This document shows positions 4,214-26,776 of a stretch of DNA of 42,201 nucleotides, piece by piece. The stretch covers positions 12,072-54,272 of the IMG/VR virus record IMGVR_UViG_3300030419_005073. The stretch is one strand, 5' to 3'. Origin of the DNA: a virus. Below the pieces are notes generated by a model. That model saw only the letters and a list, made by a program, of their open reading frames with translations, had not been told where the DNA came from and ran no database searches. The stretch's first letter is position 1, and each line of letters opens with the position of its first letter. The translations under genes and the position numbers were made by a program.

Positions 4214-4715
4214 CGAGATATTTTCAGAAGAAGTAAAAGTATTTACACCAGAAGCTTTTGAAGATTACAGAGGTGAACTTTGGACTACTTGGAAAAAAGA
4301 TGAATTTCCAATAGATTTAGAATTTAATCATGATAAAATTACTACTACTCGTAAAAATGTAATTAGAGGTATTCACGGAGATAATAAATCTTGGAAATTA
4401 GTTACTTGTTTATACGGTGAGTTATATTTTGTAGTTGTAGATAACAGAAAAGATTCATATACATATTTGAAATGGGATCATACTATATTAAGTGATAAAA
4501 ATAAAAAGATGATTTTATTACCACCTGGTTTTGGAAATTCTTTTTGTGTTTTGAGTAACTATTCAATATTTATGTATAAATGGAGTTATAAGGGAAAATA
4601 TCCTGACGTTAAGGATCAATTTTCATTAAAATGGAACGATAAAAAAATTGGTATTAACTGGCCAATATCTAATCCTATACTTTCAGATAGAGATAACAAT
4701 TCAAAGGAGTTATAA
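4206..4715 (+). CDS. dTDP-4-dehydrorhamnose 3,5-epimerase-like cupin
   Basis: A 169-residue single-domain cupin of the RfbC/RmlC family, close to the usual 180 residues. Visible family landmarks are RGIHG (the RGxH catalytic His, about residue 56), the VVVDNRKDS strand carrying the conserved Asp, and LPPGFGNSF, the counterpart of LPxGFAHGF. The second signature is altered: the usual His after GF(A) is missing. In the family the enzyme epimerises C3 and/or C5 of 4-keto-6-deoxy sugars. Members with altered pockets act at one carbon or as 3,4-ketoisomerases, so exact chemistry is open. It lies directly before the PanB-like gene. Confidence 0.75.
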   Translation: MNNEIFSEEVKVFTPEAFEDYRGELWTTWKKDEFPIDLEFNHDKITTTRKNVIRGIHGDNKSWKLVTCLYGELYFVVVDNRKDSYTYLKWDHTILSDKNKKMILLPPGFGNSFCVLSNYSIFMYKWSYKGKYPDVKDQFSLKWNDKKIGINWPISNPILSDRDNNSKEL

Positions 4716-5641
4716 TGCCAGCAGACAGTAAAACAAAAACAACAATATTAAAATTAAGAAGACATAAAAGAACAAAAGAAAAAACTTGTATGGTAACTGC
4801 ATATGATTACCCACAAGCATTAATTGCAGATAAAGCCGGAGTTGATGTTGTTCTAGTAGGAGATTCTTGTGGTATGACGACACATGGATACAAGACAACA
4901 ATTCCTGTAACAATGGATGAAATGGTGAATCATTGTGAAGCGGTATCACGAGGAGCAAAGGATGCGTTTCTTGTAGGTGATATGCCATATATGTCTTATC
5001 AACCATCAGACCAAATAGCAATAGAAAACGCTGGAAGATTTATTAAAGCTGGAATGGATTGTGCAAAAGTAGAAGGTGCTATGATAGATAGAGTTAAAGC
5101 TATTGTAGATTCTGGTATTATGGTTATGAGTCATTTAGGACTAACACCACATACTCGTGCAAAACTTGGTGGATATAGAGTACAAGGTAAAACAGCAAAG
5201 AGTGCAGAAATTGTACTTGACCAAGCATTAAGACTACAAGATGTTGGTTGTTCTTTTCTATTATTAGAAGCGATGCCAACAGAACCAGCTGGTATGATAG
5301 CAGAGAAACTTGATATACCAGTTTACGGTATTGGAGCTGGAGATAGGGTTGATGGACAACTTGTTATTATGCATGATTTAGTTGGTTTATTTTGGGAGTT
5401 TAAATCAAAGTTTGTAAAAAGATACTGTGAAGCAGGTCAGATGATACAATCAGCACTTGAAGAGTATAAGTCTGAAGTAAAAAGTGGTCAGTTTCCAGCA
5501 CCAGAAAATTTTTATGAGATTAAAGAAGAAGAACTTGAAAAACTACTTGGTGATTCTTCTTGGAAATATGAAAAAGATAGAGTTGAGAATTTAGCAAAAC
5601 CAAAACATAGTGTAACACCTAGAACAACAAAGAGGGATTAA
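4715..5641 (+). CDS. panB: Ketopantoate hydroxymethyltransferase-like enzyme (PanB family)
   Basis: A 308-residue TIM-barrel protein, slightly longer than typical PanB (about 265). All catalytic landmarks are present: TAYDYPQA, VLVGDS with metal ligand D50, VGDMPY with D89, KVEG with K118 and E120, HLGLTPH, GGYRVQGK, the catalytic Glu in LLLEAMP (E185), and GIGAGDRVDGQ. PanB transfers the hydroxymethyl group of methylene-tetrahydrofolate to 2-ketoisovalerate. In this setting, directly before a TPP enzyme and among deoxysugar enzymes, it may instead hydroxymethylate another keto substrate. The ribosome site AAGGAGTTATA and the position right after the epimerase-like gene support the start. Its stop abuts the next ATG. 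Confidence 0.85.
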   Translation: MPADSKTKTTILKLRRHKRTKEKTCMVTAYDYPQALIADKAGVDVVLVGDSCGMTTHGYKTTIPVTMDEMVNHCEAVSRGAKDAFLVGDMPYMSYQPSDQIAIENAGRFIKAGMDCAKVEGAMIDRVKAIVDSGIMVMSHLGLTPHTRAKLGGYRVQGKTAKSAEIVLDQALRLQDVGCSFLLLEAMPTEPAGMIAEKLDIPVYGIGAGDRVDGQLVIMHDLVGLFWEFKSKFVKRYCEAGQMIQSALEEYKSEVKSGQFPAPENFYEIKEEELEKLLGDSSWKYEKDRVENLAKPKHSVTPRTTKRD

Positions 5642-7494
5642 TGAAAGTAGCAGATTATATAATAAATCATTTAGCAGACTATGGAATTGAAGATGTATTT
5701 CTTGTTTATGGAGCTGCAAATGGGGATTTAGTAGATGCTTTTACGAGAAATGATAAAATAAGATATGTTGCTGTTATGCATGAACAAGGTGGTGGTTTCG
5801 CTGCTGAAGGACATGCTAAGATATCAGGTAAAATTGGAGTTGCTATGGCAACGAGTGGACCAGGTGGTATGAATTTTGTAACTTCTATCGGTAACTGTTT
5901 TTATGATTCAGTACCTTGTTTGTTTATAACAGGTCAAATTAATTCTAAATTTATGAGACCAGATGAAAGTATTAGACAAATTGGATTTCAAGAAACAGAT
6001 ATTATTAGTGTTGTAAAACCAATGACTAAGTATGCTAAAACTATCATGAATCCGTTAGATGTTAAATATGAATTAGAAAAGGCTATTCATATGGCAACAG
6101 AGGGAAGGCCAGGTCCAGTTTTATTAGATATACCAATAGATGTACAAAAGAGTGATATAGATGAAAACTCAATGATGGGATATGATGTTGGGTTAAAAAC
6201 TATGTATGATATTGATGTAATTACTAAACAGGTTGATAAATATATTGAAGATTTGAAAAATAGTGAAAGACCTTGTTTAATGATTGGTGGTGGTGTAAGA
6301 CTGAGTGGAGCAGTTGATGAGTTATTGGAACTTGGTAGAGAGTTAAAGATTCCTATGTTTCCGACTTGGAATGCATTAGACATAGTTTGTTCTGATTATG
6401 AATATTATGGTGGTAGGATCGGTACTTATGGTGGAGCAGGAAGAAACTTCGGTATACAAAACTCTGATTTATTATTAGCAATAGGAAGTAGAATATCTGG
6501 AAGAATAACGGGTGGTAATGTACATACTTTTGCTAGAGAAGCTAAAAAGTATATGGTAGATGTTGATAAGGCAGGACTACAAAAAAAGTTACAACAAGTT
6601 CCATTTGACGAATGTATTTATTCTGATGCAAAGTTGTTTATCAATATATTAAAAAACCGATTAAAACCAGCTTGGATGAGAGCTGGAAGTGGACATTTAC
6701 CAAACTTTGATTCGTGGGTAGATAAGGTAATGGATTGGAAAGAAAAATACGATCCCGTAACAGAGGATATGTTTAAACCAAGAAAATATCCACATCCATA
6801 TGCTTTTACTAGAATTTTATCAGAAGAAATGAATGACAATGATATATTCGTTGCTGATTGTGGTGGTAATATAGTTGTATGTAATCATGCATTTGAAACA
6901 AAAGTAGGACAAAGATATTTTACAAATAATGGAAATTCACCAATGGGATTTTCTTTCGCTGGTGCTATTGGAGCTGCTCTTGCTGCTGATGAATCACAAA
7001 ATGTAGTTTGTGTAATTGGTGATGGTGGATTCAATATGAATATTCAAGAGTTACAAACTATAGTTAATTATCAAATTCCAGTTAAAACTATTATATTAAA
7101 TAATCATATCTATGGTATAACAAAGGCGTTTCAAGAAACAAATTTTGAAGGTAGGTCTGAAGCTTGTGGACCAATTGGTTATAACCCACCTAATTTTGTT
7201 GATATAATTGATGCTTATAAAATTCCTACTATGGTAGTGGATGATGGTTCTGATTATGATGAGATTAGAAAACAAATTAGAGCTTTTCTGTCAGTACAGG
7301 GTCCTGTTGTTATGGATTTAAATTGTCATGAATATCATACTTACGACCCTAAAATAGTCGGATGGGAAACACCTATTGAGGATATGTACCCATATTTATC
7401 TGAAGAAGAGTTTAATGAAAATATGTATATAAAACCAATAGGGCAAAAAAGAGTTTATCCTATACTAACTGAGAACGAATTATGGGATAAGTAA
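5641..7494 (+). CDS. Acetolactate-synthase-like TPP-dependent enzyme
   Basis: A 617-residue three-domain TPP enzyme. The N-terminal Pyr domain carries the activating Glu in VMHEQGGGFAAEG (E48). The central domain has an MIGGGVR nucleotide-binding loop. The C-terminal PP domain has GDGG (460-463) and N487-N488, the GDG-x~25-NN signature binding TPP diphosphate and Mg. Length exceeds ALS large subunits (about 560-590). Alternatives in the family are acetolactate synthase, decarboxylases, and YerE, which adds a two-carbon branch from pyruvate to C4 of a 3,6-dideoxy-4-ketosugar. The cluster also encodes a 3-dehydratase-like PLP enzyme, so the YerE-like role is the most interesting reading. It is coupled to the PanB-like gene upstream. 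Confidence 0.85.
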   Translation: MKVADYIINHLADYGIEDVFLVYGAANGDLVDAFTRNDKIRYVAVMHEQGGGFAAEGHAKISGKIGVAMATSGPGGMNFVTSIGNCFYDSVPCLFITGQINSKFMRPDESIRQIGFQETDIISVVKPMTKYAKTIMNPLDVKYELEKAIHMATEGRPGPVLLDIPIDVQKSDIDENSMMGYDVGLKTMYDIDVITKQVDKYIEDLKNSERPCLMIGGGVRLSGAVDELLELGRELKIPMFPTWNALDIVCSDYEYYGGRIGTYGGAGRNFGIQNSDLLLAIGSRISGRITGGNVHTFAREAKKYMVDVDKAGLQKKLQQVPFDECIYSDAKLFINILKNRLKPAWMRAGSGHLPNFDSWVDKVMDWKEKYDPVTEDMFKPRKYPHPYAFTRILSEEMNDNDIFVADCGGNIVVCNHAFETKVGQRYFTNNGNSPMGFSFAGAIGAALAADESQNVVCVIGDGGFNMNIQELQTIVNYQIPVKTIILNNHIYGITKAFQETNFEGRSEACGPIGYNPPNFVDIIDAYKIPTMVVDDGSDYDEIRKQIRAFLSVQGPVVMDLNCHEYHTYDPKIVGWETPIEDMYPYLSEEEFNENMYIKPIGQKRVYPILTENELWDK

Positions 7495-7508
7495 GATATT
7501 TATATAAG

Positions 7509-9554
7509 ATGAATAAAATAAAAATAGGTACAGTTCAAGTAAATAATAGTTTTTCTGGACAAAACTATTTGCCATTATCCCTCGGGTTTTTAGTATCTTA
7601 TGCTGAATTTCATTGTAAGAATTTTGATGACTTTGATTTTTTAAATCCTATATACAAAAGAGTTCCAATAAAAGAAGCAGTTGAATTATATAAAGACTGT
7701 GATATAGTTGCTTTTAGTGTTTATGTATGGAATAATAATATATCGATGAGGATAGCAAAGGCATTAAAAGAAGTTAATCCAAATATATTAACTTTAGCTG
7801 GTGGGTGTCATATACCTGAAAGACCTGAATACATTGAAAAATATATGAGTGATCATCCTTATCTTGATATTGCTTCAATTGGAGAAGGTGAACGAGTGTT
7901 TACTGATTTCTTAGAAAATTATCCTTCTAGAAGTTGGGATAAAGTAGAATCATTAGTTTATAGAGATGGTGATAAATTAATCACTACACCTCAAGCAGAA
8001 AGAATAAAAGATATGAATGAAATACCATCTCCTTTTATTGAGGGTTATTTTGATGATTTAGTAAAAGATAATCCAGAAGAAAGATGGATTGGATTATGGG
8101 AAACTAATCGAGGTTGTCCGTTTGCTTGTACTTTTTGTGATTGGGGTGTCGGATTTAAAAAGAAAGTATCTAAGTACGACTTAGAAGGTAGATTATACGA
8201 AGAAATAGATTGGTTCAGTAAAAATAAAATAGAGTTTATCTTTACCTGTGATGCTAACTTTGGTATGTACAAAGATAGAGATTTACCTATTGTTAAAAAG
8301 TTTGCTGAGAATAAAAATAAGTATGGATATCCTGAGGCATTATCAGTTCAAAATACTAAAAATTCAAATGAAGTTTCATATCAAGTTCAAAAGTTAATGT
8401 CAGATACAGGATTGAGTAAAGGTGCTTTAATAGCATTTCAATCACTTGATCCTAAGACTTTAAAGGCTATAAAAAGAGCTAATATAAAACTTGATGTATT
8501 TTACGATTTACAGGCTAAATTTATGAAAGATGGAATTAAAACATTTTCTGATATTATTTTAGGTTTACCTGAAGAAACTTACGATAGTTTTACATCCGGT
8601 GTTGCTAAGTTAATTAGTATGGGTCAACATAATAGAATTCAGTTTAACAATCTAAGTATATTACCAAATACAGAAATGGGAGATCCAGAGTATCTTGAAA
8701 AGTATGAAATGAAAGTAGTTGAAAACGATATTATAAATATACATGGTGCTTTAGGAGAATGGTTAGATGACATTTACGAAACACAACAAATGGTAGTGGG
8801 AACTAAGTCAATGCCAGGAGAAGATTGGGTTAAAACTCGTGTATTTGGATATGTTGTAGCTTTTTTACATTTTAATAAGTTATTTCAGATACCTATTATA
8901 TTAGCTAATACTGTTTATGGTATAAGTTATAAAGAATTATTTGACGCGTTTGTTACAGAAGAAAAGAGTAAAACAGGTGCATTTTCTGATTTGATAAGTG
9001 ATTTCTATAAACAAGCACGTAATATGCAAAAAGGTGGACCAGAATTTGTTAGTTCTAAAAAGTGGTTAAATATTTGGTGGCCACCAGATGAGTTAGCGTT
9101 TATACGTGCCGTTACAGAAGGTAAGTTAGATGATTTTTATGAGGATTCAAAAGAAATTCTATATAACGTATTTGATAATCACGGTATTAAAAATTACGAT
9201 AGAATTATTTCAGAAGCAATATTACTTAATAAGAGTTTAATAAAATTACCGAATCAAACAAGAGATTTAAGTATTAGATTAAATTGGAATATTTTAGATG
9301 TTTATAATGCTACATTATTAGGAAAAGAATCTACATTAAAAGAAGGTAGATTTACTTATTTTATTGATAGAACAAGTGAAACATGGGATTCGTGGGAAGA
9401 TTGGTGTGAAAAAGTAGTTTGGTGGTCAAATAAAAAAGGTGCATATTTATATGATTGTTCGATTAGTAATAATAAAAAGAAAAAAGAGTTTATAATGCCA
9501 CAAGTTATAAGAATTGAAAGTGAACCGTTTGGGAGTGATGCAAGATATCAATAA
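7509..9554 (+). CDS. B12-binding-domain radical SAM protein
   Basis: A 681-residue protein. Residues 1-150 have the layout of a cobalamin-binding Rossmann domain (LPLSLGFLVSYA, IVAFSVYVW, LAGGCHIP, GEGERVF). The radical SAM core follows, with CPFACTFC holding the [4Fe-4S] cysteines C203, C207 and C210. A SAM-barrel segment LPEETYDSF and a roughly 250-residue alpha-helical C-terminal extension complete it. Class B radical SAM enzymes of this architecture methylate unreactive carbon or rearrange carbon skeletons. The substrate is unknown; position after the TPP enzyme and before two SDR genes suggests a sugar nucleotide or glycan. A 14-base gap separates it from the upstream stop. Confidence 0.85.
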   Translation: MNKIKIGTVQVNNSFSGQNYLPLSLGFLVSYAEFHCKNFDDFDFLNPIYKRVPIKEAVELYKDCDIVAFSVYVWNNNISMRIAKALKEVNPNILTLAGGCHIPERPEYIEKYMSDHPYLDIASIGEGERVFTDFLENYPSRSWDKVESLVYRDGDKLITTPQAERIKDMNEIPSPFIEGYFDDLVKDNPEERWIGLWETNRGCPFACTFCDWGVGFKKKVSKYDLEGRLYEEIDWFSKNKIEFIFTCDANFGMYKDRDLPIVKKFAENKNKYGYPEALSVQNTKNSNEVSYQVQKLMSDTGLSKGALIAFQSLDPKTLKAIKRANIKLDVFYDLQAKFMKDGIKTFSDIILGLPEETYDSFTSGVAKLISMGQHNRIQFNNLSILPNTEMGDPEYLEKYEMKVVENDIINIHGALGEWLDDIYETQQMVVGTKSMPGEDWVKTRVFGYVVAFLHFNKLFQIPIILANTVYGISYKELFDAFVTEEKSKTGAFSDLISDFYKQARNMQKGGPEFVSSKKWLNIWWPPDELAFIRAVTEGKLDDFYEDSKEILYNVFDNHGIKNYDRIISEAILLNKSLIKLPNQTRDLSIRLNWNILDVYNATLLGKESTLKEGRFTYFIDRTSETWDSWEDWCEKVVWWSNKKGAYLYDCSISNNKKKKEFIMPQVIRIESEPFGSDARYQ

Positions 9555-11419: not shown

Positions 11420-12408
11420 ATTTAGCCGCAGTAGTAGGTGGTTCTGTAAGTTCTGATTGGAAATCTTGGTATGTTAAAGATAAAGAAAAGTATCTTTTTG
11501 ATGGAGATACCGTTCATGAGGTTTACAATCCGTTTTTTAACTATTGTTTTTTTTGGGATGACGGTTGTTTTTTAAATTTGTCTGAGTGGGAGGATGAGTT
11601 ACCAGATTTAGATTTAGATGTTATAGTTTACGCAAATGAGAGACATGGTTTAGATGCATCTAATTGGGATAAATATAGTGTGACTAGATTAAAAAACAAA
11701 TATCCTAAAGCAAAAGTTATAGGATTTATTAAAGAGATTACTGTTCCACCTCATAGGTATAAAAATTGGATTAGATTTTTGAATGAATGTGATTATATAG
11801 TTGCTCCAGCAACCGCTAATATGCAAAAGTTACCAGTATATACTGAAATACAATCAGGATTAAATAAAAAAATTAACTTTTTTTCTACACCTCACGATAT
11901 AGAAACTGTTTATGATAAATTTTATTCTAATGTAAAGAATAATACTATTTTTGCGTATTTACCAAATCCGATGCATAGAAGAGGTAGAACATTAGAATTT
12001 GCAGAATATATTGGGAAAAAGTATGACATTCCTGTAATAAAAAAACCTTTTACAAATGGTTCTAATGATGCTATGTATATGAGTTGGGAAGATTTTACTA
12101 ATCTTTGGTCACCATGTTTATGGCATTTTAATTTAGATCCATCAAACTTACAACAAGGTCAACACGTGGTTGCTGTGGCTAATGTTGGATCAATTAATTT
12201 TGGTGGTATGAATGAATCTCATAGTGTTTTATTTCCAGAAACCGCTACTTGTGATGAATCTATACTAGAAGAAAAATTTGTTGAATATTTAGAGAATCCT
12301 GAAAAAAGATTTGAAGTTATTGCATATGCGTGGAATAAACTTAATGAATTGTATAGTATGGATGTAGTTAAGAAACAGTTATTAGAGATGTTATCAAATA
12401 CAAAATAA
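11416..12408 (+). CDS. Putative GT-B glycosyltransferase-like protein
   Basis: A 330-residue soluble protein without a motif I can name. Alternating strands and helices in two halves (a first half ending near PATANMQKLP, and a second opening with NNTIFAYLPNP and containing AVANVGSINFGGMNESHS) suggest a GT-B fold in which the second glycine-rich segment would bind the nucleotide sugar. There is no signal or membrane segment. Placement between SDR and PLP-enzyme genes in a glycan operon supports a transferase role. It could equally be a catalytically inactive partner. GGAG lies at 11404-11407. A 54-base AT-rich gap follows it. Confidence 0.45.
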   Translation: MNLAAVVGGSVSSDWKSWYVKDKEKYLFDGDTVHEVYNPFFNYCFFWDDGCFLNLSEWEDELPDLDLDVIVYANERHGLDASNWDKYSVTRLKNKYPKAKVIGFIKEITVPPHRYKNWIRFLNECDYIVAPATANMQKLPVYTEIQSGLNKKINFFSTPHDIETVYDKFYSNVKNNTIFAYLPNPMHRRGRTLEFAEYIGKKYDIPVIKKPFTNGSNDAMYMSWEDFTNLWSPCLWHFNLDPSNLQQGQHVVAVANVGSINFGGMNESHSVLFPETATCDESILEEKFVEYLENPEKRFEVIAYAWNKLNELYSMDVVKKQLLEMLSNTK

Positions 12409-12462: not shown

Positions 12463-13644
12463 ATGAAAAAATTAAATTTACCATTGATGTCAAATAATAT
12501 TGATAGAGAAGACGTAGATTGTCTTATAGAATTTTTAAAACAAGAACCAATACCTAGATTAACTAATGGTCCAAAAGTAATTGAATTTGAAGAGAAATGG
12601 TCTAAGTGGTTAGGTGTAGAACATAGTGTGTTAGTAAATTCTGGTACTGCAGCCAACGAGTTAACTATGTTAGCATTGAAGTATAAGTATCCAGAGGGTG
12701 GAGAGATAATAGTACCACCACTTACTTGGATATCAGATATTAATTCTGTTTTGTTTGCTGAATTTAATCCAGTATTTGTAGATATAAATTTTAAAAACTT
12801 ATCTTTTGATTTAGATAAATTAGAAGAAGCTATAACAGAAAAAACAAAAGCTATTTTTGTTACTCATGTGTTAGGTATAAATGCATTATCTGAAAGATTA
12901 TTGAAAATATGTGAAGATAATGATATATTACTGATTGAAGATGTTTGTGAATCTCATGGAGTAACTTATAATGATGTCAAGGTAGGTTCTATTGGATTTG
13001 CTAGTAATTTTAGTTTCTATTTCGCACATCATATGAGTACAATAGAAGGTGGTATAATTTCAACAAATGACAATAATTTTTATCAGTTATGTAGGTCATT
13101 AAGGTCTCATGGAATGGTTAGAGAATTTACTGATGAAAAATTAATAGAAAAGTATGAAAGTGAAAATGAAGATTTAAGTAAAGATTTTATTTTTATAGGA
13201 CCGGCACATAATTTCAGAAGTACTGAACTTAATGCTGTTTTGGGTTTATGTCAATTGAAAAAATTAGATTCAAACAATAAAATTAGAATTGATAATTTTA
13301 AATATTTTGTGGATAATTTAAAGTCTGATAAGTTTTATACAGATTTTGAAATGGATGGACAATGTAATTATGCTTTTATTCTTGTTATGAAAGAGGCTGA
13401 TTATGAGTTACGATATCTTATTGAAAAAATGATGGATTATAATGGTATAGAATTTCGTAGAGGATTATCAGGTGGTGGAAATCAATTAAGACAACCATAT
13501 TTTAAATCTAAATTTGAAATATCTTATGATGAGTTTCCTAATGTTGAACATATTCATAATTTCAGTTGGTATATAGGTAACTATCCAACATTAGAGAGAG
13601 AAAAATTAGATAATTTAATAAGGTTATTAAATGAAACTAAGTGA
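12463..13644 (+). CDS. PLP-dependent 3-dehydratase-like enzyme, ColD/RfbH type
   Basis: A 393-residue member of the DegT/DnrJ/EryC1/StrS fold: SGTAANEL (PLP phosphate loop), PPLTWISDINS, LIEDVCESHG (the Asp pairing with the PLP nitrogen) and EGG. The key position is SFYFAHHMSTIEGG: where aminotransferases have the Schiff-base Lys, this protein has H189, with unchanged spacing to the EGG. That swap defines ColD (GDP-4-keto-6-deoxymannose 3-dehydratase) and the E1/RfbH dehydratases. The length matches ColD (about 388) and not the longer, iron-sulfur-containing E1. A GDP-mannose 4,6-dehydratase that would supply ColD's substrate is encoded at 24895. So C3 deoxygenation, not transamination, is the likely reaction. 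Confidence 0.8.
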   Translation: MKKLNLPLMSNNIDREDVDCLIEFLKQEPIPRLTNGPKVIEFEEKWSKWLGVEHSVLVNSGTAANELTMLALKYKYPEGGEIIVPPLTWISDINSVLFAEFNPVFVDINFKNLSFDLDKLEEAITEKTKAIFVTHVLGINALSERLLKICEDNDILLIEDVCESHGVTYNDVKVGSIGFASNFSFYFAHHMSTIEGGIISTNDNNFYQLCRSLRSHGMVREFTDEKLIEKYESENEDLSKDFIFIGPAHNFRSTELNAVLGLCQLKKLDSNNKIRIDNFKYFVDNLKSDKFYTDFEMDGQCNYAFILVMKEADYELRYLIEKMMDYNGIEFRRGLSGGGNQLRQPYFKSKFEISYDEFPNVEHIHNFSWYIGNYPTLEREKLDNLIRLLNETK

Positions 13645-13924
13645 GTATTATAAATATTATTTAACACTTCACGAGAATCCTAAGTGTAAGTTGTTACATT
13701 TCATAGGGCAATGGGTTACAATATTATTTACCATATCTGTATTGTATAATTGGTATTGGTATTTAATTCCACTTATTCCATTTGTAGTGTATCCTTTCGC
13801 TTGGAGTGGTCATTATTTTTTTGAACATAATAAACCAGCTGCTTTTAATGATCCAGTAAAAGCAAAGGTGTCAGATTGGATTATGTTTAAAGATATTTTA
13901 TTAGGAAGGTTGAAGATATGGTAA
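13631..13924 (+). CDS. Mpo1/DUF962-like membrane protein
   Basis: A 97-residue membrane protein with the landmarks of the DUF962/YGL010w (Mpo1) family: YLTLHENPKCKLLHFIG, then two hydrophobic helices (about 28-65), then WSGHYFFEHNKPAAFNDP. The four conserved histidines (H14, H23, and the H of SGH and of FEH) are the metal ligands of yeast Mpo1, an Fe(II) dioxygenase shortening 2-hydroxy fatty acids by alpha-oxidation. It is the only clear membrane protein inside the glycan cluster. It overlaps the PLP-enzyme gene upstream by 14 bases and the SDR downstream by 7, so it is part of the operon. Activity in this context is unknown. Confidence 0.75.
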   Translation: MKLSEYYKYYLTLHENPKCKLLHFIGQWVTILFTISVLYNWYWYLIPLIPFVVYPFAWSGHYFFEHNKPAAFNDPVKAKVSDWIMFKDILLGRLKIW

Positions 13925-15280: not shown

Positions 15281-16045
15281 ATGATGGTATTAGTTATAGG
15301 TGAAGTTTGTACTGATGTTTTCATTTACGGTGAAATAAAACGATTAAGTCCAGAAGCACCAGTACCAGTACTTAATCCACTAAAAGAAGTTTCAAATGAT
15401 GGGATGGCGAAAAATGTTCTCAACAATGTGGCTGCTTTAAAAGTAGAAGTATTTTCTATTACTAATAAAAATAGTATTAGAAAGATTAGATATGTAGATT
15501 ATAAATCTAATCAGTTAGTTTTACGTGTAGATGAACATGACTTTTGTGATAGAATTGAAAAAGATACATTATTAAGTATAAAGGATAATGTAACTTATAT
15601 GTCAATGGCAGGTAGACTTACATTTGATGCTATCATCATATCAGATTATTGTAAAGGATTTTTGACTGAAGATGATATTAAATTTATATGTGAAAATAAT
15701 AAAAATGTTTTTGTTGATACTAAAAAAGAACTTGGTGATTGGATAAATTCTGCAACTTACTTAAAAATAAATTCTTTAGAGTATGATAAAAATACAAAGT
15801 TTTTTGAAAATAGTAATGTCATAGATAAAACTATTGTTACTAAGGGTAATGAAGGATGTTTATTTCAAGGTAAAATTTACCCAACTGAAGATGTACCTGT
15901 AAAAGATATATCAGGTGCAGGTGATACTTTTATTGCAGCTTTAGTTGTAGAATATATTAAGTCTAATGATATAATAAAAGCAATTAATTTTGCACAAGAA
16001 TGTACTAAAATTGTAGTACAAAAACATGGTGTTTCTACTATATGA
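15281..16045 (+). CDS. Short PfkB-family kinase, HldE N-domain-like
   Basis: A 254-residue sugar kinase of the PfkB/ribokinase fold. The N-terminus GEVCTDVFIYGEIKRLSPEAPVPV is the hallmark of the heptose-7-phosphate kinase domain of HldE/RfaE, followed by GMAKNVLNNVAAL. The C-terminus has DISGAGDTF, with the catalytic Asp of the anion-hole motif. Compared with a roughly 315-residue HldE kinase domain it lacks about 60 residues, mainly between the N-terminal sheet and the R-VDEHD segment. It could phosphorylate a heptose or another sugar phosphate at C1. No adenylyltransferase domain follows. AAGGAGA at 15267-15273 supports the start at the first of two adjacent ATGs; the stop overlaps the next start as ATGA. 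Confidence 0.8.
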   Translation: MMVLVIGEVCTDVFIYGEIKRLSPEAPVPVLNPLKEVSNDGMAKNVLNNVAALKVEVFSITNKNSIRKIRYVDYKSNQLVLRVDEHDFCDRIEKDTLLSIKDNVTYMSMAGRLTFDAIIISDYCKGFLTEDDIKFICENNKNVFVDTKKELGDWINSATYLKINSLEYDKNTKFFENSNVIDKTIVTKGNEGCLFQGKIYPTEDVPVKDISGAGDTFIAALVVEYIKSNDIIKAINFAQECTKIVVQKHGVSTI

Positions 16046-17589
16046 AACTTGATGATACGTTAAAAAAATGGTTGTATAATACGTACACAGATAATATACC
16101 AGATAAACTAAGTTTATTATTAAAAGAACAAGGTGTGCCGAATGAATGGATTTTACCGAGTACAGTAATAATTCATAGACTTTCAAATATGCCTTGGTAT
16201 ACTCAAGAACAAATATTAAATGAAATTTCTTTGACCAAAGAAGAACTAATTAATTTAAATTCTTTAATACGTGAATCAGAATTTTTACAGGACATAATTG
16301 TACATCGTGGTTTGGGTAGAAAGTATTGGAACACAATGATACCTTACGTTAAGAGTGGTAAGATAGATAAAGTTATAAATTATGAATATGATTTTCCATT
16401 AAGGTTAGCACTTTTTCCAGGAATGTCTTGTATGTACTATTGTGGGTTTTGTGGTAGGAATCAGAATGCTGCTTATGATCCTAAAAAAGTGTTGAAGAGT
16501 GGTGTCAGTACATATAAAGATATAATTTCAAGTTTACCTAATAATTCAACTATTTCTATTTCTGGAGGATTAGAACCACTTACTAATTTTAAATTAGGTG
16601 AAATAATATCTCATGCTAAATCTTTAGGTCATAGAGTTCCATTGATAACGAATGCACATATGTTGACACCAAAGTATTTAGAAAGTCAACCTGGGATTTG
16701 GGACTTAGATTCTTTAAGAGTGTCATTATATGGTACTGATCAAGAGTCAACTTATTTTGTTACACGACATAAAAAAGCATATAAATTGGTGAAGGATAAT
16801 ATAATAGAATTTTTGAAAGAACGGAACAGAAAAAAATCAAATGTTAAGTTAGGTATTAATTATATTATAATTCCAGAAAATATAGATACTATTTTACCAT
16901 TACTTGATTATATTATTGATATTAATTCTAAAGTTAGTAATGGTGACGGTGTTGATTTTTTAACTATCCGAGAAGACTTCGGGAGTGTAACAGATATTAG
17001 TGATGACGCTGATAAAAATATTGAGGGTAGGAAATATCACTTAGACGGATTTTTGTCAGAGGAACAGAGAAGAAAACTTATAGATATATTTAAAGAATTT
17101 AATGATAGGAGAGAGAAAGAATGTTCTAAACTTCACGTTGATTTTGGTTATGCTATGGTAGCGTTGGGTGAGGGTGTATTAGGTAAACCATTAGCGAGAG
17201 TAAATGGGTTTCAAATGAGAAAATCAGGATTCCCACAGTTATCAGTTGCTGTAGATAGTGCCGGTGATGTGTTTCTTTACAGAGAAGCTGGATTTTTAGA
17301 TAGACCAGGAAATAAAAAATTTATTGCAGGTAGAATAACTAACGGAGAAACTTTAGAATCTGTCTTGAAAAATTTTATTGAGAGTAAAGAAACTGCTGAT
17401 TTAGTAGTTTATGATTCAAGGTTTATGGATTCATATGATCATTTGATAACTTTATTAGTTAATCAAGCAGAACAAGATATGGATTTTGGAATACCTTTTG
17501 AACACGGACCAGTTAAAGTTAGATGTCCTAACATAGAAGAATTGAATGTTGAATTAAGTAATAATTGGTATAGAGATGAAAAAAATTAG
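16042..17589 (+). CDS. DesII-like radical SAM sugar ammonia-lyase/dehydrogenase
   Basis: A 515-residue radical SAM enzyme with the cluster motif CMYYCGFC (C130, C134, C137) and SGGLEPLTN (174-182), the GGxEP SAM-binding motif. Further blocks match my memory of DesII, the desosamine enzyme that deaminates TDP-4-amino-4,6-dideoxyglucose: a YDP segment after the cysteines, SLYG, a TIRED strand, a D-x-x-GDVFLYREAGF block, AGRIT, and a similar length (DesII about 485). The helical N-terminal domain (1-110) with KYWNTMIPY also fits. It probably acts on a nucleotide sugar by radical C-N or C-O cleavage, or by oxidation. A Lys-type sugar aminotransferase that would make the amino substrate is not visible here. 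It is coupled to the kinase upstream (ATGA) and overlaps the next gene. Confidence 0.7.
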   Translation: MKLDDTLKKWLYNTYTDNIPDKLSLLLKEQGVPNEWILPSTVIIHRLSNMPWYTQEQILNEISLTKEELINLNSLIRESEFLQDIIVHRGLGRKYWNTMIPYVKSGKIDKVINYEYDFPLRLALFPGMSCMYYCGFCGRNQNAAYDPKKVLKSGVSTYKDIISSLPNNSTISISGGLEPLTNFKLGEIISHAKSLGHRVPLITNAHMLTPKYLESQPGIWDLDSLRVSLYGTDQESTYFVTRHKKAYKLVKDNIIEFLKERNRKKSNVKLGINYIIIPENIDTILPLLDYIIDINSKVSNGDGVDFLTIREDFGSVTDISDDADKNIEGRKYHLDGFLSEEQRRKLIDIFKEFNDRREKECSKLHVDFGYAMVALGEGVLGKPLARVNGFQMRKSGFPQLSVAVDSAGDVFLYREAGFLDRPGNKKFIAGRITNGETLESVLKNFIESKETADLVVYDSRFMDSYDHLITLLVNQAEQDMDFGIPFEHGPVKVRCPNIEELNVELSNNWYRDEKN

Positions 17590-19312
17590 AGTAGGACAGA
17601 TAGGTAGAGGGAGTTTTGGTAAAAAGATATTATCAAAGTTAGAGAATATACCTAATGTATCAGTTGAATGGGTATACGGTTCAGCAGATAAATGGTGGGA
17701 GTTTGATGAAGTGGATTGGGTTATTATTGCTAGTCCGAATGAATTTCATTATGAACAGGCAAAACACTATTTAGAATTAGGTTATAATGTTTTTTGTGAA
17801 AAACCTGGTACATTATCAACTCATTCGTTACTTGAATTGATAAGCTTATCTGAGTTAAAGGATGTATGTTTTTATATAGATGATGTATTGACGTATGAGG
17901 ATATATTACCAATTAATGATTTTATTTATAAAAAATGGGGTGGATTATCTGCCAATATAATTGATAGGATGGCATATCATCACTTTTATTTGGTTTATGA
18001 TATGATAGGTGAATTGACTTCAACTAATATTGATGTAACAATCAATGATATTAGTCATAAGGTTTTTGAAATTGATTTCGGTGATTTAAACTTTAAGTTT
18101 GAATATGATTTTGGTTGGTATAAAGAAAAAGTTCATAATATAACACCTAGATTTAGTGGTGATGCTTTAGAAACTATGTTGACGAAAGTTTTACAAGAAG
18201 ATGTAGATTTTAAGTTAAACCACAAAAGGAGTGTTTTTGCTACAAAATTAAGTGAACTTGTGAAATCTAGTTTATATGGAAAATGTGCTGTAGTTGGTGC
18301 TGGTATTTATGGTATCACTGCAGCTACTAAATTGAGAACTGCAGGATATAATGTAGATTTGTATGATTCTGAAGATGATATTTTAAAGAAAGCATCTGGA
18401 ATTAATCAGTATAGAATACATAGAGGATATCACTATCCTAGAAGTCCTGAAACAATAGAGTCGTGTAAGAATAATGAAGAGTCGTTTATAAAATATTATA
18501 ATCAATCTATAGTATATAATAACATAAAACATTATTATTCAATCGCGTCTGAAGAGAGTTTAGTAACACCACAAGAATATTTAACTGTATTAGACAAGAC
18601 TAAATTAGATTGGAAGATAGTAGAAACGTTACCAAACTGTGATTTGACTATAGAAGTAGAAGAAAAATTATATGATCCTCATATATTAAGTGAGATATGT
18701 CATGAGCGAATAAAAGGTAATGGAATTAATTTAATATTAAATACATCTGTAGATAAATTAGATGGTTATAATTATGTTGTTTATGCGACATATACATCAC
18801 TTAATGATTTTACAGATAATAAAGAAGATTATCAATTTGAATTATGTGAAAAGCCAGTATTAAAATTACCAAGTATATATAAAAATAAGAGTATTGTTAT
18901 TATGGACGGTCCTTTTATGTGTTTTGATCCCTTAGCAGATACAGGTTATCATCTCGGTGGAAATGTAGTTCACGCTATTCACGCTAGTAATATAGGTAAG
19001 ACTCCCAAGATACCACCAGTGTATGAAGAATATTTAAATAAAGGTATTGTAAAGAAACCAAAGTATACAAATATAGATAGTTTTATTGAATCAGCTAAAA
19101 AGTTTTTTCCTAAAATAGAAGACTCAGAATACATTGGTTCTATGTATACAATAAGGACAGTTTTACCGTATAAAGATGAAACAGATGAAAGACCAACTAT
19201 TGTTACTAAACGTGATAATAATTTTATTTTATTTAGTAGTAAAATTGGTAACTGTGTTGATTCGTCAGAAGAGATATTAAATATAATAAAAAATGAAGTT
19301 ATAGAGAATTAG
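17576..19312 (+). CDS. Gfo/Idh/MocA domain fused to FAD-dependent oxidoreductase
   Basis: A 578-residue fusion. Residues 1 to about 235 are Gfo/Idh/MocA-like: VGQIGRGSFG for NAD(P), VIIASPNEFHYEQA, and CEKPGTLS with the family EKP Lys. The C-terminal sheet domain is compact. From about 238 a second nucleotide site begins, VVGAGIYGITAATKL, the FAD loop of DAO/glycine-oxidase-type flavoproteins. It continues with IHRGYHYPRS and ends with a region (SKIGNCVDSSEE) in the usual place of the second FAD contact. The two activities are probably sequential, for example oxidation of a sugar carbon by NAD and of an amine or alcohol by FAD. It directly follows the DesII-like gene, overlapping it by 14 bases. 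Confidence 0.75.
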   Translation: MKKIRVGQIGRGSFGKKILSKLENIPNVSVEWVYGSADKWWEFDEVDWVIIASPNEFHYEQAKHYLELGYNVFCEKPGTLSTHSLLELISLSELKDVCFYIDDVLTYEDILPINDFIYKKWGGLSANIIDRMAYHHFYLVYDMIGELTSTNIDVTINDISHKVFEIDFGDLNFKFEYDFGWYKEKVHNITPRFSGDALETMLTKVLQEDVDFKLNHKRSVFATKLSELVKSSLYGKCAVVGAGIYGITAATKLRTAGYNVDLYDSEDDILKKASGINQYRIHRGYHYPRSPETIESCKNNEESFIKYYNQSIVYNNIKHYYSIASEESLVTPQEYLTVLDKTKLDWKIVETLPNCDLTIEVEEKLYDPHILSEICHERIKGNGINLILNTSVDKLDGYNYVVYATYTSLNDFTDNKEDYQFELCEKPVLKLPSIYKNKSIVIMDGPFMCFDPLADTGYHLGGNVVHAIHASNIGKTPKIPPVYEEYLNKGIVKKPKYTNIDSFIESAKKFFPKIEDSEYIGSMYTIRTVLPYKDETDERPTIVTKRDNNFILFSSKIGNCVDSSEEILNIIKNEVIEN

Positions 19313-23897: not shown

Positions 23898-24898
23898 ATA
23901 CAATATTAAAAAATAAATATGTTATAGGAACTCACGTTATGTTCTTTGAAATTGAAATGTTCAAAGATTTTATTGACGGGTTAATAAATCTATTAGAAAC
24001 AGTTGAAAATAAAGAAAATGTAATAGTTGATTTATGTTTTAATTTATCACAGAAGTTAGAAAAGATAGATACAAATAAGATAGATGAAAAGAGTTTATTA
24101 GTTAAATTTTCTAATAACGTAAAAAGGTTACAAAATATAGGAGTCAATGTAGATTGGAGAGTTCACGATGGAGATGATTTTTATTTCCATGCAGATTACA
24201 GAAGAGATTTAAATTACAATTACTGTAAGAAAGTAGATTATGTAATGTGGGGAGAAACAGATAGTTTTTTCCCTAGAGAAGCTTTTCAGGTAATTGAAAC
24301 TTTATCAGAGTATACAAAAGAACAGAATATGCATAGATACTTATTAAGCTTTTCAGATAGAAAAATGTGGGATGCATCTTGGGATCCGTTAGTTCACGTT
24401 GATTATGAACACTTAGAGTTTATTGATGATGATGAAGGTCATTTAAATCCGAATCAAGCTAAATCACCAATGTCAATTGAAAAGATGAATGAGATAAACG
24501 GAAAAGTTGATGAATTTAATTTTACTTATATTACTAAACCTAAGATAAGTGGAGCTTGTTTAGTGTTATCATCAGATTTAATAAAAAGTGGTGTGAATGT
24601 ACCGTCGTGTTTAATTTATAATGATGACGAAGGGTTATCGATTATGTGTGAAAAGATATTAGGACAAAATTTTATACAGTTCGTTTGTAAGAATATATTA
24701 CACGTTCACGCTAGAAGACACCCACAAAAGAGATGTTATGTAGTGAATGAAGATAACCCTCATGCTTTTATAAATAAAAAAGTAGATAATTTTCAAAAAT
24801 TATTACAAATGTCTAAAAGTAATATTCAAAATTTGACTAATGTAAATAATAAGTTCTATGAATATAATGATTTAGAAAAAATATTGGAGGTATCATGA
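23894..24898 (+). CDS. Putative GT-A glycosyltransferase-like protein
   Basis: A 334-residue soluble protein that I cannot place in a family. A GT-A fold is suggested by a first strand (KYVIGTHVMFF), an internal acidic motif after a strand (VDYVMWGETDSFFP, where E-T-D could bind metal), ISGACLVLSSDLI and a late HVHARRHP that could be the final metal ligand. It is embedded with ATGA overlaps on both sides between PIG-L and GDP-mannose 4,6-dehydratase genes, consistent with a role in the same glycan pathway. An inactive or non-transferase role cannot be excluded. Confidence 0.5.
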   Translation: MNTILKNKYVIGTHVMFFEIEMFKDFIDGLINLLETVENKENVIVDLCFNLSQKLEKIDTNKIDEKSLLVKFSNNVKRLQNIGVNVDWRVHDGDDFYFHADYRRDLNYNYCKKVDYVMWGETDSFFPREAFQVIETLSEYTKEQNMHRYLLSFSDRKMWDASWDPLVHVDYEHLEFIDDDEGHLNPNQAKSPMSIEKMNEINGKVDEFNFTYITKPKISGACLVLSSDLIKSGVNVPSCLIYNDDEGLSIMCEKILGQNFIQFVCKNILHVHARRHPQKRCYVVNEDNPHAFINKKVDNFQKLLQMSKSNIQNLTNVNNKFYEYNDLEKILEVS

Positions 24899-25860
24899 AA
24901 AGAGCGTTAATTACGGGTATTAACGGAATGGACGGAAGTCATTTAGCAGATTTTTTATTAGAAAAAGGATATACTGTTTTTGGAATGGAACGTAGGTCAT
25001 CTTCAAAAAACAGAACTAATACATCACACTTAGAAGGTAAGATTACATTTATCAGTGGTGATTTAACAGATCAAAATTCATTGTTAAGATGTATTAGAGA
25101 ATCAGAACCTGATGAAGTTTACAGTTTGGCTTCACAATCATTTGTAGGTGAGAGTTGGAATACACCAGAACAAACAGGTGATGTTACAGGACTTGGAGTT
25201 ATGAGATTATTAGAAGCGATAAGAGAGAATGGTAAAAAGATAAAATTTTATCAAGCATCGTCATCAGAAATGTTCGGTAGAATGGTAGAAAATCCAGCGA
25301 AAGAAACTACACCATTTTATCCACGTTCACCTTATGGAGTCGCAAAATTATATGGACATTGGATTACAGTAAACTATAGAGAATCTTATGATATGTTTAA
25401 TGTAAGCGGTATCTTATTTAATCATGAATCAGAAAGAAGGGGAATAGAATTTGTAACAAGAAAAATATCAGATGGTGTAGCTAGAATTCATTTAGGAATG
25501 CAAAATGAGTTAGTACTAGGTAATTTAGATGCAAAACGAGATTGGGGATATGCACCAGATTATGTTGAAGCTATGTGGATGATGTTACAACAAGATAAAC
25601 CAGATGATTATGTTATAGCGACTGGAAAAGATTATAGTATAAGAGAATTTTTAGATTACGCTTTTGGTCACATAGGTATAAATGATTGGGAAAAGTATGT
25701 TAAACAAGATGAAAGATATATGAGACCTGCTGAAGTAGCGGTATTACGAGGAGATTCTTCAAAAGCAAAAAGAGAATTAGGATGGGTTCCGAAAACATCA
25801 TTTAAAGATATGGTAACTAAAATGGTTGAAAATGATATAAGATATGCTAGTAGGAGATAA
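24895..25860 (+). CDS. gmd: GDP-mannose 4,6-dehydratase
   Basis: A 321-residue extended SDR recognisable along its whole length: ALITGINGMDGSHLA (the family's GQDG loop, Gln replaced by Met), GMERRSSS, FYQASSSEMFG, YPRSPYGVAK with Y147 and K151, HWITVNYRESY, LFNHESERRG and EFVTRKI. It converts GDP-mannose to GDP-4-keto-6-deoxymannose, the entry point to GDP-fucose, GDP-rhamnose, perosamine and colitose. The ColD-like enzyme at 12463 would act on this product. Host GDP-mannose is presumably the source because no mannose guanylyltransferase is visible. GGAGG lies five bases before the start, and the start overlaps the upstream stop (ATGA). Confidence 0.92.
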   Translation: MKRALITGINGMDGSHLADFLLEKGYTVFGMERRSSSKNRTNTSHLEGKITFISGDLTDQNSLLRCIRESEPDEVYSLASQSFVGESWNTPEQTGDVTGLGVMRLLEAIRENGKKIKFYQASSSEMFGRMVENPAKETTPFYPRSPYGVAKLYGHWITVNYRESYDMFNVSGILFNHESERRGIEFVTRKISDGVARIHLGMQNELVLGNLDAKRDWGYAPDYVEAMWMMLQQDKPDDYVIATGKDYSIREFLDYAFGHIGINDWEKYVKQDERYMRPAEVAVLRGDSSKAKRELGWVPKTSFKDMVTKMVENDIRYASRR

Positions 25861-25864
25861 ATAA

Positions 25865-26776
25865 ATGAAAGTTTTAATAACAGGTGGTTCAGGAACTATA
25901 GGTAGAGCGTTTATAAAAAATTATGCAGAGTTTTTTGATATTTTTAGTTATAGTAGAGATGAAAATAAACAAACACAATTGACTAGGAATTTTCCAAATG
26001 TTAAACAGTATTTGGGTAGTGTAGAAGATAGAGAAACAGTTTTTAGAATTTTTGAAGAAGTTAAACCAGATATTGTAGTTCATGCAGCTGCAGTAAAACA
26101 TATTAATTTAGCAGAGAAACAACCAATTCAAACTTGTAAAGTAAATATAGTAGGTAGTTTGAATATAATAGAAGCCTCAATAAGAACTGATGTACCTGTA
26201 ACTGTGGCTATTAGTACTGATAAAGCTTGTTCTTATGAAAGTGTGTATGGTGGATCAAAATGGTTAATGGAAAGATGTTTTTTAGAAGCAAATAGTAATA
26301 GAAATAAATTTTCAGTATGTAGATTTGCAAATGTTGCACATAGTGATGGTTCAGTTTTACCGTTTTGGTTAAAACAAAAAGAAGAAGGTAAAGCATTAAA
26401 ACTTACTGACCCAAAAATGAATAGGTTGATGTTTACACAGGATGATGCAGCTAATTTAATTTATAGAACTGTTGATTATACTCGTAAACATGAAGGTGGA
26501 TTTGTGTGTTCGTATAAGATGAAGTGTGTGAATATGTTTGATCTAGCTAAAGCTATATCTGATAATATTGAAATAGTTGGAAAACGACCTGGTGAAAAAA
26601 GAGATGAAGATTTAATATCTAAACATGAATTACCGTACACATATGTTAAAGGTAATGATATTCATATTAGAGCGGAAGAAAATATTTATGATAAAAAACT
26701 AGAAGTACCTTATAATTCACATAGTGCTGAAAAGATGACATCTAAACAAATAAAAGAGTTAGTTGAATGGAATTAA
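25865..26776 (+). CDS. CapD/FlaA1-type nucleotide-sugar 4,6-dehydratase
   Basis: A 303-residue SDR of the short soluble CapD/FlaA1/PseB type. ITGGSGTIGRAF is the NADP loop, DIVVHAAAVKHINLAEKQP and the CKVNIVGS segment are hallmark strings, ISTDKAC holds the catalytic Asp/Lys region, YGGSK is YxxxK, and CRFANV follows. FlaA1/PseB acts on UDP-GlcNAc, removing water across C4-C6 with or without C5 inversion, starting pseudaminic acid, QuiNAc or FucNAc routes. Paired with gmd it gives the cluster two independent 6-deoxysugar entry points. The protein is shorter than PseB (about 330). AGGAG lies about six bases before the start, and the stop overlaps the next gene by ten bases. Confidence 0.85.
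   Translation: MKVLITGGSGTIGRAFIKNYAEFFDIFSYSRDENKQTQLTRNFPNVKQYLGSVEDRETVFRIFEEVKPDIVVHAAAVKHINLAEKQPIQTCKVNIVGSLNIIEASIRTDVPVTVAISTDKACSYESVYGGSKWLMERCFLEANSNRNKFSVCRFANVAHSDGSVLPFWLKQKEEGKALKLTDPKMNRLMFTQDDAANLIYRTVDYTRKHEGGFVCSYKMKCVNMFDLAKAISDNIEIVGKRPGEKRDEDLISKHELPYTYVKGNDIHIRAEENIYDKKLEVPYNSHSAEKMTSKQIKELVEWN

Follow-up and report, generated by a model that had tools for sequence, protein, structure and literature searches.

A DesII-like radical SAM enzyme encoded in the surface-glycan gene cluster of a marine T4-like phage

DesII is a radical enzyme with which antibiotic-making bacteria remove the C4 substituent of a sugar; its chemistry is known from antibiotic sugars. An open reading frame resembling DesII was noticed in the DNA of a virus, which raises the questions of what such an enzyme does in a phage and whether it acts on an amino sugar supplied by the host or on a hydroxyl sugar. 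The window analyzed here, 42,201 nucleotides in length, comprises bases 12072-54272 of the 54,272-base virus record IMGVR_UViG_3300030419_005073, itself a fragment. The features discussed below are listed in Table 1.

The record belongs to a T4-like marine phage. Genes for ribonucleotide reductase, B-family DNA polymerase, sliding clamp, and clamp loader were found in the 12 kb upstream of the window, and the DNA polymerase has its nearest match within the phage collection in Microcystis phage Mel-JY01 (46%), followed by Synechococcus T4-like phages. The window itself consists mostly of glycan genes, encoding glycosyltransferases, SDR enzymes, GDP-mannose 4,6-dehydratase, a UDP-glucose dehydrogenase family protein, and methyltransferases, so the viral glycan operon setting proposed in the initial annotation holds. 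The DesII-like open reading frame begins with ATG and has no internal stops; the opposite strand carries many stops and its frame is closed. This gene overlaps both of its neighbors, which is consistent with an operon, and the ATGA overlap with the upstream kinase gene probably reflects translational coupling. Large variable glycan regions in T4-like marine phages are also described for pelagimyophage host recognition clusters, which contain radical SAM cassettes, rfaE, and UDP-glucose dehydrogenase genes (PMC7029224). The passages on these clusters considered here identify no DesII-like enzyme, and the phage analyzed here differs in having Mel-JY01 as the nearest polymerase match.

Table 1. 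Positions of the DesII-like gene, its motifs, and related genes in the window (position 1 is the first base of the window)
Feature	Position	Strand	Remarks
ColD-type dehydrase, His replacing Lys	12463-13644	+	best PDB match ColD, E 2.9e-51; active-site alignment
HldE-like (PfkB family) sugar kinase	15281-16045	+	stop codon overlaps DesII-like start (ATGA)
DesII-like radical SAM enzyme, 515 aa	16042-17589	+	helical N-terminal domain, radical SAM domain, C-terminal domain
CX3CX2C, C130/C134/C137, ligands of the SAM-cleaving [4Fe-4S] cluster	16429-16452	+	alignment with DesII C141/C145/C148
SGGLEPLTN (residues 174-182), GGE-type SAM-binding motif	16561-16587	+	corresponds to DesII G187-E190 (PMC11434129)
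Loop insertion, residues ~314-340, GSVTDISDDADKNIEGRKYHLDGFLSE	16981-17061	+	position of the DesII flexible SAM-capping loop
GDVFLYREAGF (residues 408-418), E415 equivalent to DesII E408	17263-17295	+	alignment, PMC11434129
D463, equivalent to DesII D456	17428-17430	+	alignment, PMC11434129
Short Gfo/Idh/MocA oxidoreductase domain, residues 1-235 of fused 578-aa protein	17576-18280	+	PF01408; EKP motif kept
FAD-dependent oxidoreductase domain, DAO fold, residues 236-578	18281-19312	+	PF01266
GDP-mannose 4,6-dehydratase, which could supply a 4-keto-6-deoxy sugar nucleotide	24895-25860	+	TIGR01472, 429 bits, above cut-off of 415
PseB-like SDR dehydratase	25865-26776	+	TIGR03589, 206 bits, below PseB cut-off of 408

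The assignment of the protein to the DesII type is based on profile, PDB, and fold searches. The NCBIfam model for DesII (TIGR04426) matched the protein with 338.6 bits (E 5.5e-101), below its curated cut-off of 450 bits, and none of the marine relatives found by this model reaches 450 bits. The radical SAM domain (PF04055) scored 31.8 bits against a cut-off of 29.5 and, together with the CX3CX2C motif, places the protein in the radical SAM superfamily. In the PDB sequence search, both DesII sequences were found with E ~5e-76 (best 4.7e-76), and the first non-DesII chain had an E of 0.002. Chance resemblance is excluded by the E-values of the DesII chains and of TIGR04426. Among the close matches, DesII is the only protein of known function; neither AprD4 nor SpeY is named among the matches listed in the PDB sequence search or the structure searches.

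A structure model was built from 11 related sequences (mean pLDDT 74, pTM 0.75), with low confidence in the cluster loop (129-144), the inserted loop (314-335), and the C-terminus. DesII is the best match of this model both in Foldseek (E 1.7e-33) and in VIA-align (Z 32.2, rmsd 3.1, 458 aligned residues). The next folds, with Z ~17 (top 17.4), include MoaA and SuiB and align only in the radical SAM core and the C-terminal part. The SPASM peptide-modifying enzymes SuiB and SkfB share this core with the phage protein, and their matches do not extend past it and some of the C-terminal domain (Z ~17 vs 32). Membership in the SPASM group, the outcome that would have overturned the initial annotation, is ruled out by the Z of 17.3 for SuiB vs 32.2 for DesII; membership among the viperins is likewise ruled out by the structure searches.

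The cysteines, SGGLEPLTN, and GDVFLYREAGF, on which the initial annotation relied, were recovered at their places and align with DesII. The residues of DesII C141/C145/C148, G187-E190, R238, S240, Y242, D323, E408, and D456 are all present in the phage protein, and the only change among the residues named for DesII (PMC11434129) is that of Y324 to F313. In DesII, E408 is the proton-shuttle residue, the D456A mutant is inactive, and the loop D323-E337 is flexible and caps SAM (PMC11434129). The E408A variant of DesII is active. In total, the phage protein shares with DesII (TDP-4-amino-4,6-dideoxy-D-glucose ammonia-lyase, TIGR04426; PDB 8HZV and 8HZY) the full-length fold, CX3CX2C, GGLE, the R-S-Y ribose motif, the beta-6 Asp, the E408 and D456 equivalents, and 155 identical residues in a 441-column alignment. 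It differs from DesII in its score below the TIGR04426 cut-off, the loop insertion at 314-340, a C-terminal extension, the failure to find an aminotransferase in the same record, and its location in a surface-glycan rather than a macrolide cluster. A comparison of 26 sequences showed no variation at the cysteines, the ribose motif, or D463 in those that extend that far; the E415 equivalent is changed only in one copy of locus L059, and L008 is truncated upstream of this site. These results confirm that the gene encodes a DesII-like radical SAM protein, and they show that it has the fold of DesII together with its cluster cysteines, its SAM-binding residues, and its pair of acidic residues in the active site.

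No counterpart of the DesII-like protein was found in the phage collection (tblastn), no PHROG was assigned to it, and the best viral structure reached a TM of only 0.42. A literature search on DesII in phages returned nothing relevant. Relatives were found by scans, in which the E-values for loci are relative to the candidates: in IMG/VR contigs (52-83% identity), in the archaeon GW2011_AR15 (68%), in Prochlorococcus (57%), and in SAR11 (47-51%). A second phage group (L055-L059) has 34-37% identity. Relatives were present in 7 of the 347 sampled genomes from the order of the SAR11 genome and in 2 of 41 from the genus of the Prochlorococcus genome; beyond the central genome, none was found among 398 genomes from the phylum of the SAR11 genome or 279 from that of AR15. 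Three pairs of loci are nearly identical (L006/L007, L055/L056, and L057/L058), and locus counts therefore overstate the number of independent cases.

In the tree, the clade-1 phages, Prochlorococcus, AR15, and all SAR11 sequences except L043 form one group (support 100/99), separated from the Streptomyces sequences by a branch of 2.34. The placement of L043, whose branch is long, is uncertain. The loop insertion (314-340) is present in every member of this marine clade, with variable length, and is not found in macrolide DesII, the second phage group, or L043. Recent import from macrolide producers is ruled out by the support of the marine clade and the length of the branch to Streptomyces. 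The resemblance to DesII stands, but relatives of DesII are not restricted to macrolide producers: SAR11, Prochlorococcus, an archaeon, and several phages have a clade of their own. Because of the long separating branch and the loop insertion, the substrate of the marine enzymes may differ from that of macrolide DesII.

The next gene encodes a fusion of a short MocA domain with a DAO-fold domain. In a model of the fused protein, the MocA part is similar to biliverdin reductase and GenD2 (Z ~22) and the DAO part to glycerol-3-phosphate dehydrogenase and glycine oxidase (Z ~24). By sequence, the DAO domain has only weak matches in the PDB, mostly to the nucleotide-binding part, and the annotations of its plasmid-borne relatives go no further than FAD-dependent or FAD-binding oxidoreductase. 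The MocA domain is a candidate C3-ketoreductase; its relatives in Prochlorococcus L047 and AR15 have as best match UDP-GlcNAc 3-dehydrogenase, a C3 enzyme. A short MocA adjoins the DesII-like gene, or lies no more than two genes away, in the window and nine other clade-1 phage loci (L004-L009, L053, L054, and L060), as well as in eight SAR11 loci (L012, L013, L014, L042, L044, L045, L046, and L048). A DAO-fold protein often accompanies MocA in the clade loci. MocA and DAO form a single protein in the window, L004, L006-L009, and L060, and they flank the DesII-like gene in L005; in L053 and L054, MocA was seen and DAO was not. L043 and the Prochlorococcus loci encode a longer MocA protein nearby but not next to the DesII-like gene. 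In AR15, no MocA gene lies beside the DesII-like gene (L010, 9992-11530); the MocA and DAO genes of this archaeon are adjacent to each other, ~100 kb away.

Streptomyces plasmids NZ_CP051007 and NZ_CP108530 each contain a DesI-type aminotransferase, DesII, and a Gfo/Idh/MocA reductase in one cluster. Such DesI-DesII-MocA sets serve D-chalcose-type 4,6-dideoxy sugars. In comparison with them, the phage lacks a DesI-type aminotransferase, and its MocA is shorter and fused to a flavoenzyme. The earlier observation that the window encodes no Lys-type sugar aminotransferase was borne out: the sole DegT-family protein has His at the position of the PLP lysine (SFYFAHHMST), and as a His-type, ColD-like protein it is ruled out as the missing aminotransferase. 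Known ColD-type relatives remove the C3 oxygen, and the DesII-type reaction requires a C3 hydroxyl; therefore, the ColD-type protein probably belongs to the pathway of a different sugar made by the cluster. Across all 54 kb of the record, PF01041 matched only this protein and PF00155 matched nothing, so that the DesI partner characteristic of the DesII family was not found there. Over ten clade-1 phage records, PF01041 gave four matches (G000, G006, G1073, and G1074), all His-type; no Lys-type aminotransferase was found with it in any of the ten, including the 169-kb L060 record, and PF00155 had no matches in eight of them. The record is a fragment, and such a partner could be supplied by the host.

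Aminotransferases were found near related genes. In L055-L059, the second phage group, the DesII-like gene has Lys-type aminotransferase genes beside it. Locus L059 has two DesII-like genes (1326-2819 and 4549-5787) around a Lys-type aminotransferase, the first with Gly at the E408 equivalent. In SAR11 G134 and G112, a Lys-type aminotransferase lies ~8-11 kb away in the same cluster (PseC-like in G134, a similar protein in G112), and in both G134 and G307 PseB adjoins the module. Prochlorococcus L047 has, ~7 kb away on the same strand, two aminotransferases with DesI as best model.

Taken with these findings, the protein is likely a DesII-like radical SAM sugar-nucleotide lyase making a 3-keto-4,6-dideoxy sugar nucleotide that is reduced by the MocA domain. 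The reduced cluster would split SAM to give the 5'-deoxyadenosyl radical, which would abstract the C3 hydrogen of a nucleotide-bound 6-deoxyhexose. The C4 group would then leave, aided by E415 and D463, and one further electron would give the 3-keto-4,6-dideoxy sugar nucleotide. Reduction of the 3-ketone to a 4,6-dideoxyhexose is most likely the work of the MocA domain, whose gene comes next and overlaps translationally; phage glycosyltransferases would then attach this sugar to a host surface glycan. Counted against this reading are the TIGR04426 score (338.6 of 450 bits), the lack of a Lys-type aminotransferase in the clade-1 phage records searched, the long branch and loop insertion of the marine clade, and the position of MocA away from the DesII-like gene in AR15, L043, and the Prochlorococcus loci. 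Ammonia is somewhat favored over water as the leaving group because the active site is that of a deaminase; the aminotransferases near related genes in the second phage group, Prochlorococcus L047, and SAR11 G134 and G112 also speak for ammonia; with ammonia release, the substrate would be a host-made 4-amino-4,6-dideoxy sugar.

The less favored branch of this lyase reading, possible though tentative, is a dehydratase, which would need no aminotransferase and would take water from C4 of a 6-deoxyhexose that is bound to a nucleotide and has its 4-hydroxyl axial. It agrees with the absence of Lys-type DegT and class I/II aminotransferases from the clade-1 phage records, one of them of 169 kb, and with the presence of GDP-mannose 4,6-dehydratase or a close homolog in the window, L004, L005, L054, and L060, by which a GDP-6-deoxyhexose would be available. 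DesII itself partly dehydrates TDP-D-fucose; for TDP-D-quinovose, however, the computed dehydration barrier is high (PMC11434129). Also against water loss, E415 and D463 are deaminase residues, and related genes lie near aminotransferases in other phages, Prochlorococcus, and Streptomyces.

The nucleotide carrier may differ between loci, as judged from neighboring genes. In SAR11 L014, the DesII-MocA pair is followed by genes for a CDP-glucose-type dehydratase and a nucleotidyltransferase, in other SAR11 loci by PseB (UDP-sugar), and the phage cluster encodes GDP-mannose 4,6-dehydratase; the carrier may thus be GDP, CDP, or UDP. A broader proposal, which we regard as rather doubtful, is that marine phages and SAR11 have in common a previously undescribed module of three parts (DesII-like lyase, short MocA, and DAO), a radical route to 4,6-dideoxy sugars of the surface. 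It would remove the C4 oxygen of a GDP-, CDP-, or UDP-sugar with no aminotransferase involved, and both the leaving group and the nucleotide would differ from those of the macrolide pathway.

An unlikely alternative is that the enzyme only oxidizes C3 of a 4-hydroxy sugar, with MocA re-reducing it, so that C3 is inverted or another step is fed. DesII does dehydrogenate TDP-D-quinovose (PMC11434129) and a MocA reductase adjoins the phage gene, but a costly radical SAM oxidation would duplicate the C3 work of NAD-dependent MocA enzymes. It is highly improbable that the enzyme carries out some other radical SAM chemistry on a substrate that is not a sugar, for example the modification of a peptide or cofactor: the weak secondary matches to radical SAM/SPASM and viperin models span only the radical SAM core, whereas DesII is matched over the whole fold and at both acids of the active site, and the neighbors are glycan genes.

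The occurrence of a distinct clade in SAR11, Prochlorococcus, and marine phages would place C4-deoxygenated sugars on the surfaces of ocean bacteria, as targets of phage remodeling. In nature these enzymes occur both with aminotransferase partners and without them, a series suited to testing what decides between deamination, dehydration, and dehydrogenation.

The contig of SAR11 G307 (L065, 5544-7657; L045, 9181-12420) shares ColD-type, SDR, DesII-like, and MocA genes with the phage cluster. The ColD-type proteins are 48% and the SDR proteins 49% identical, and the B12-type radical SAM protein of G307 is 57% identical to one in L004, which suggests phage-host exchange or a common source. In the window, a B12-binding radical SAM protein of 681 aa is encoded at 7509-9554, with a 95% identical copy in L053; two other radical SAM-like proteins of this type are encoded in L004. 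Near the window start, a glycosyltransferase-like gene of L003 (~12062-12075) contains a short run of unknown bases (XXXX in translation), probably an assembly gap. The glycan cluster also includes genes for a PanB-like ketopantoate hydroxymethyltransferase (4715-5641) followed by an acetolactate-synthase-like TPP enzyme (5641-7494); this pair was found in L004 and L054 as well, and an RmlC-like gene precedes it in the window and L054. An Mpo1-like protein (PF06127) is encoded in the cluster at 13631-13924 and is conserved in L004 and L053.
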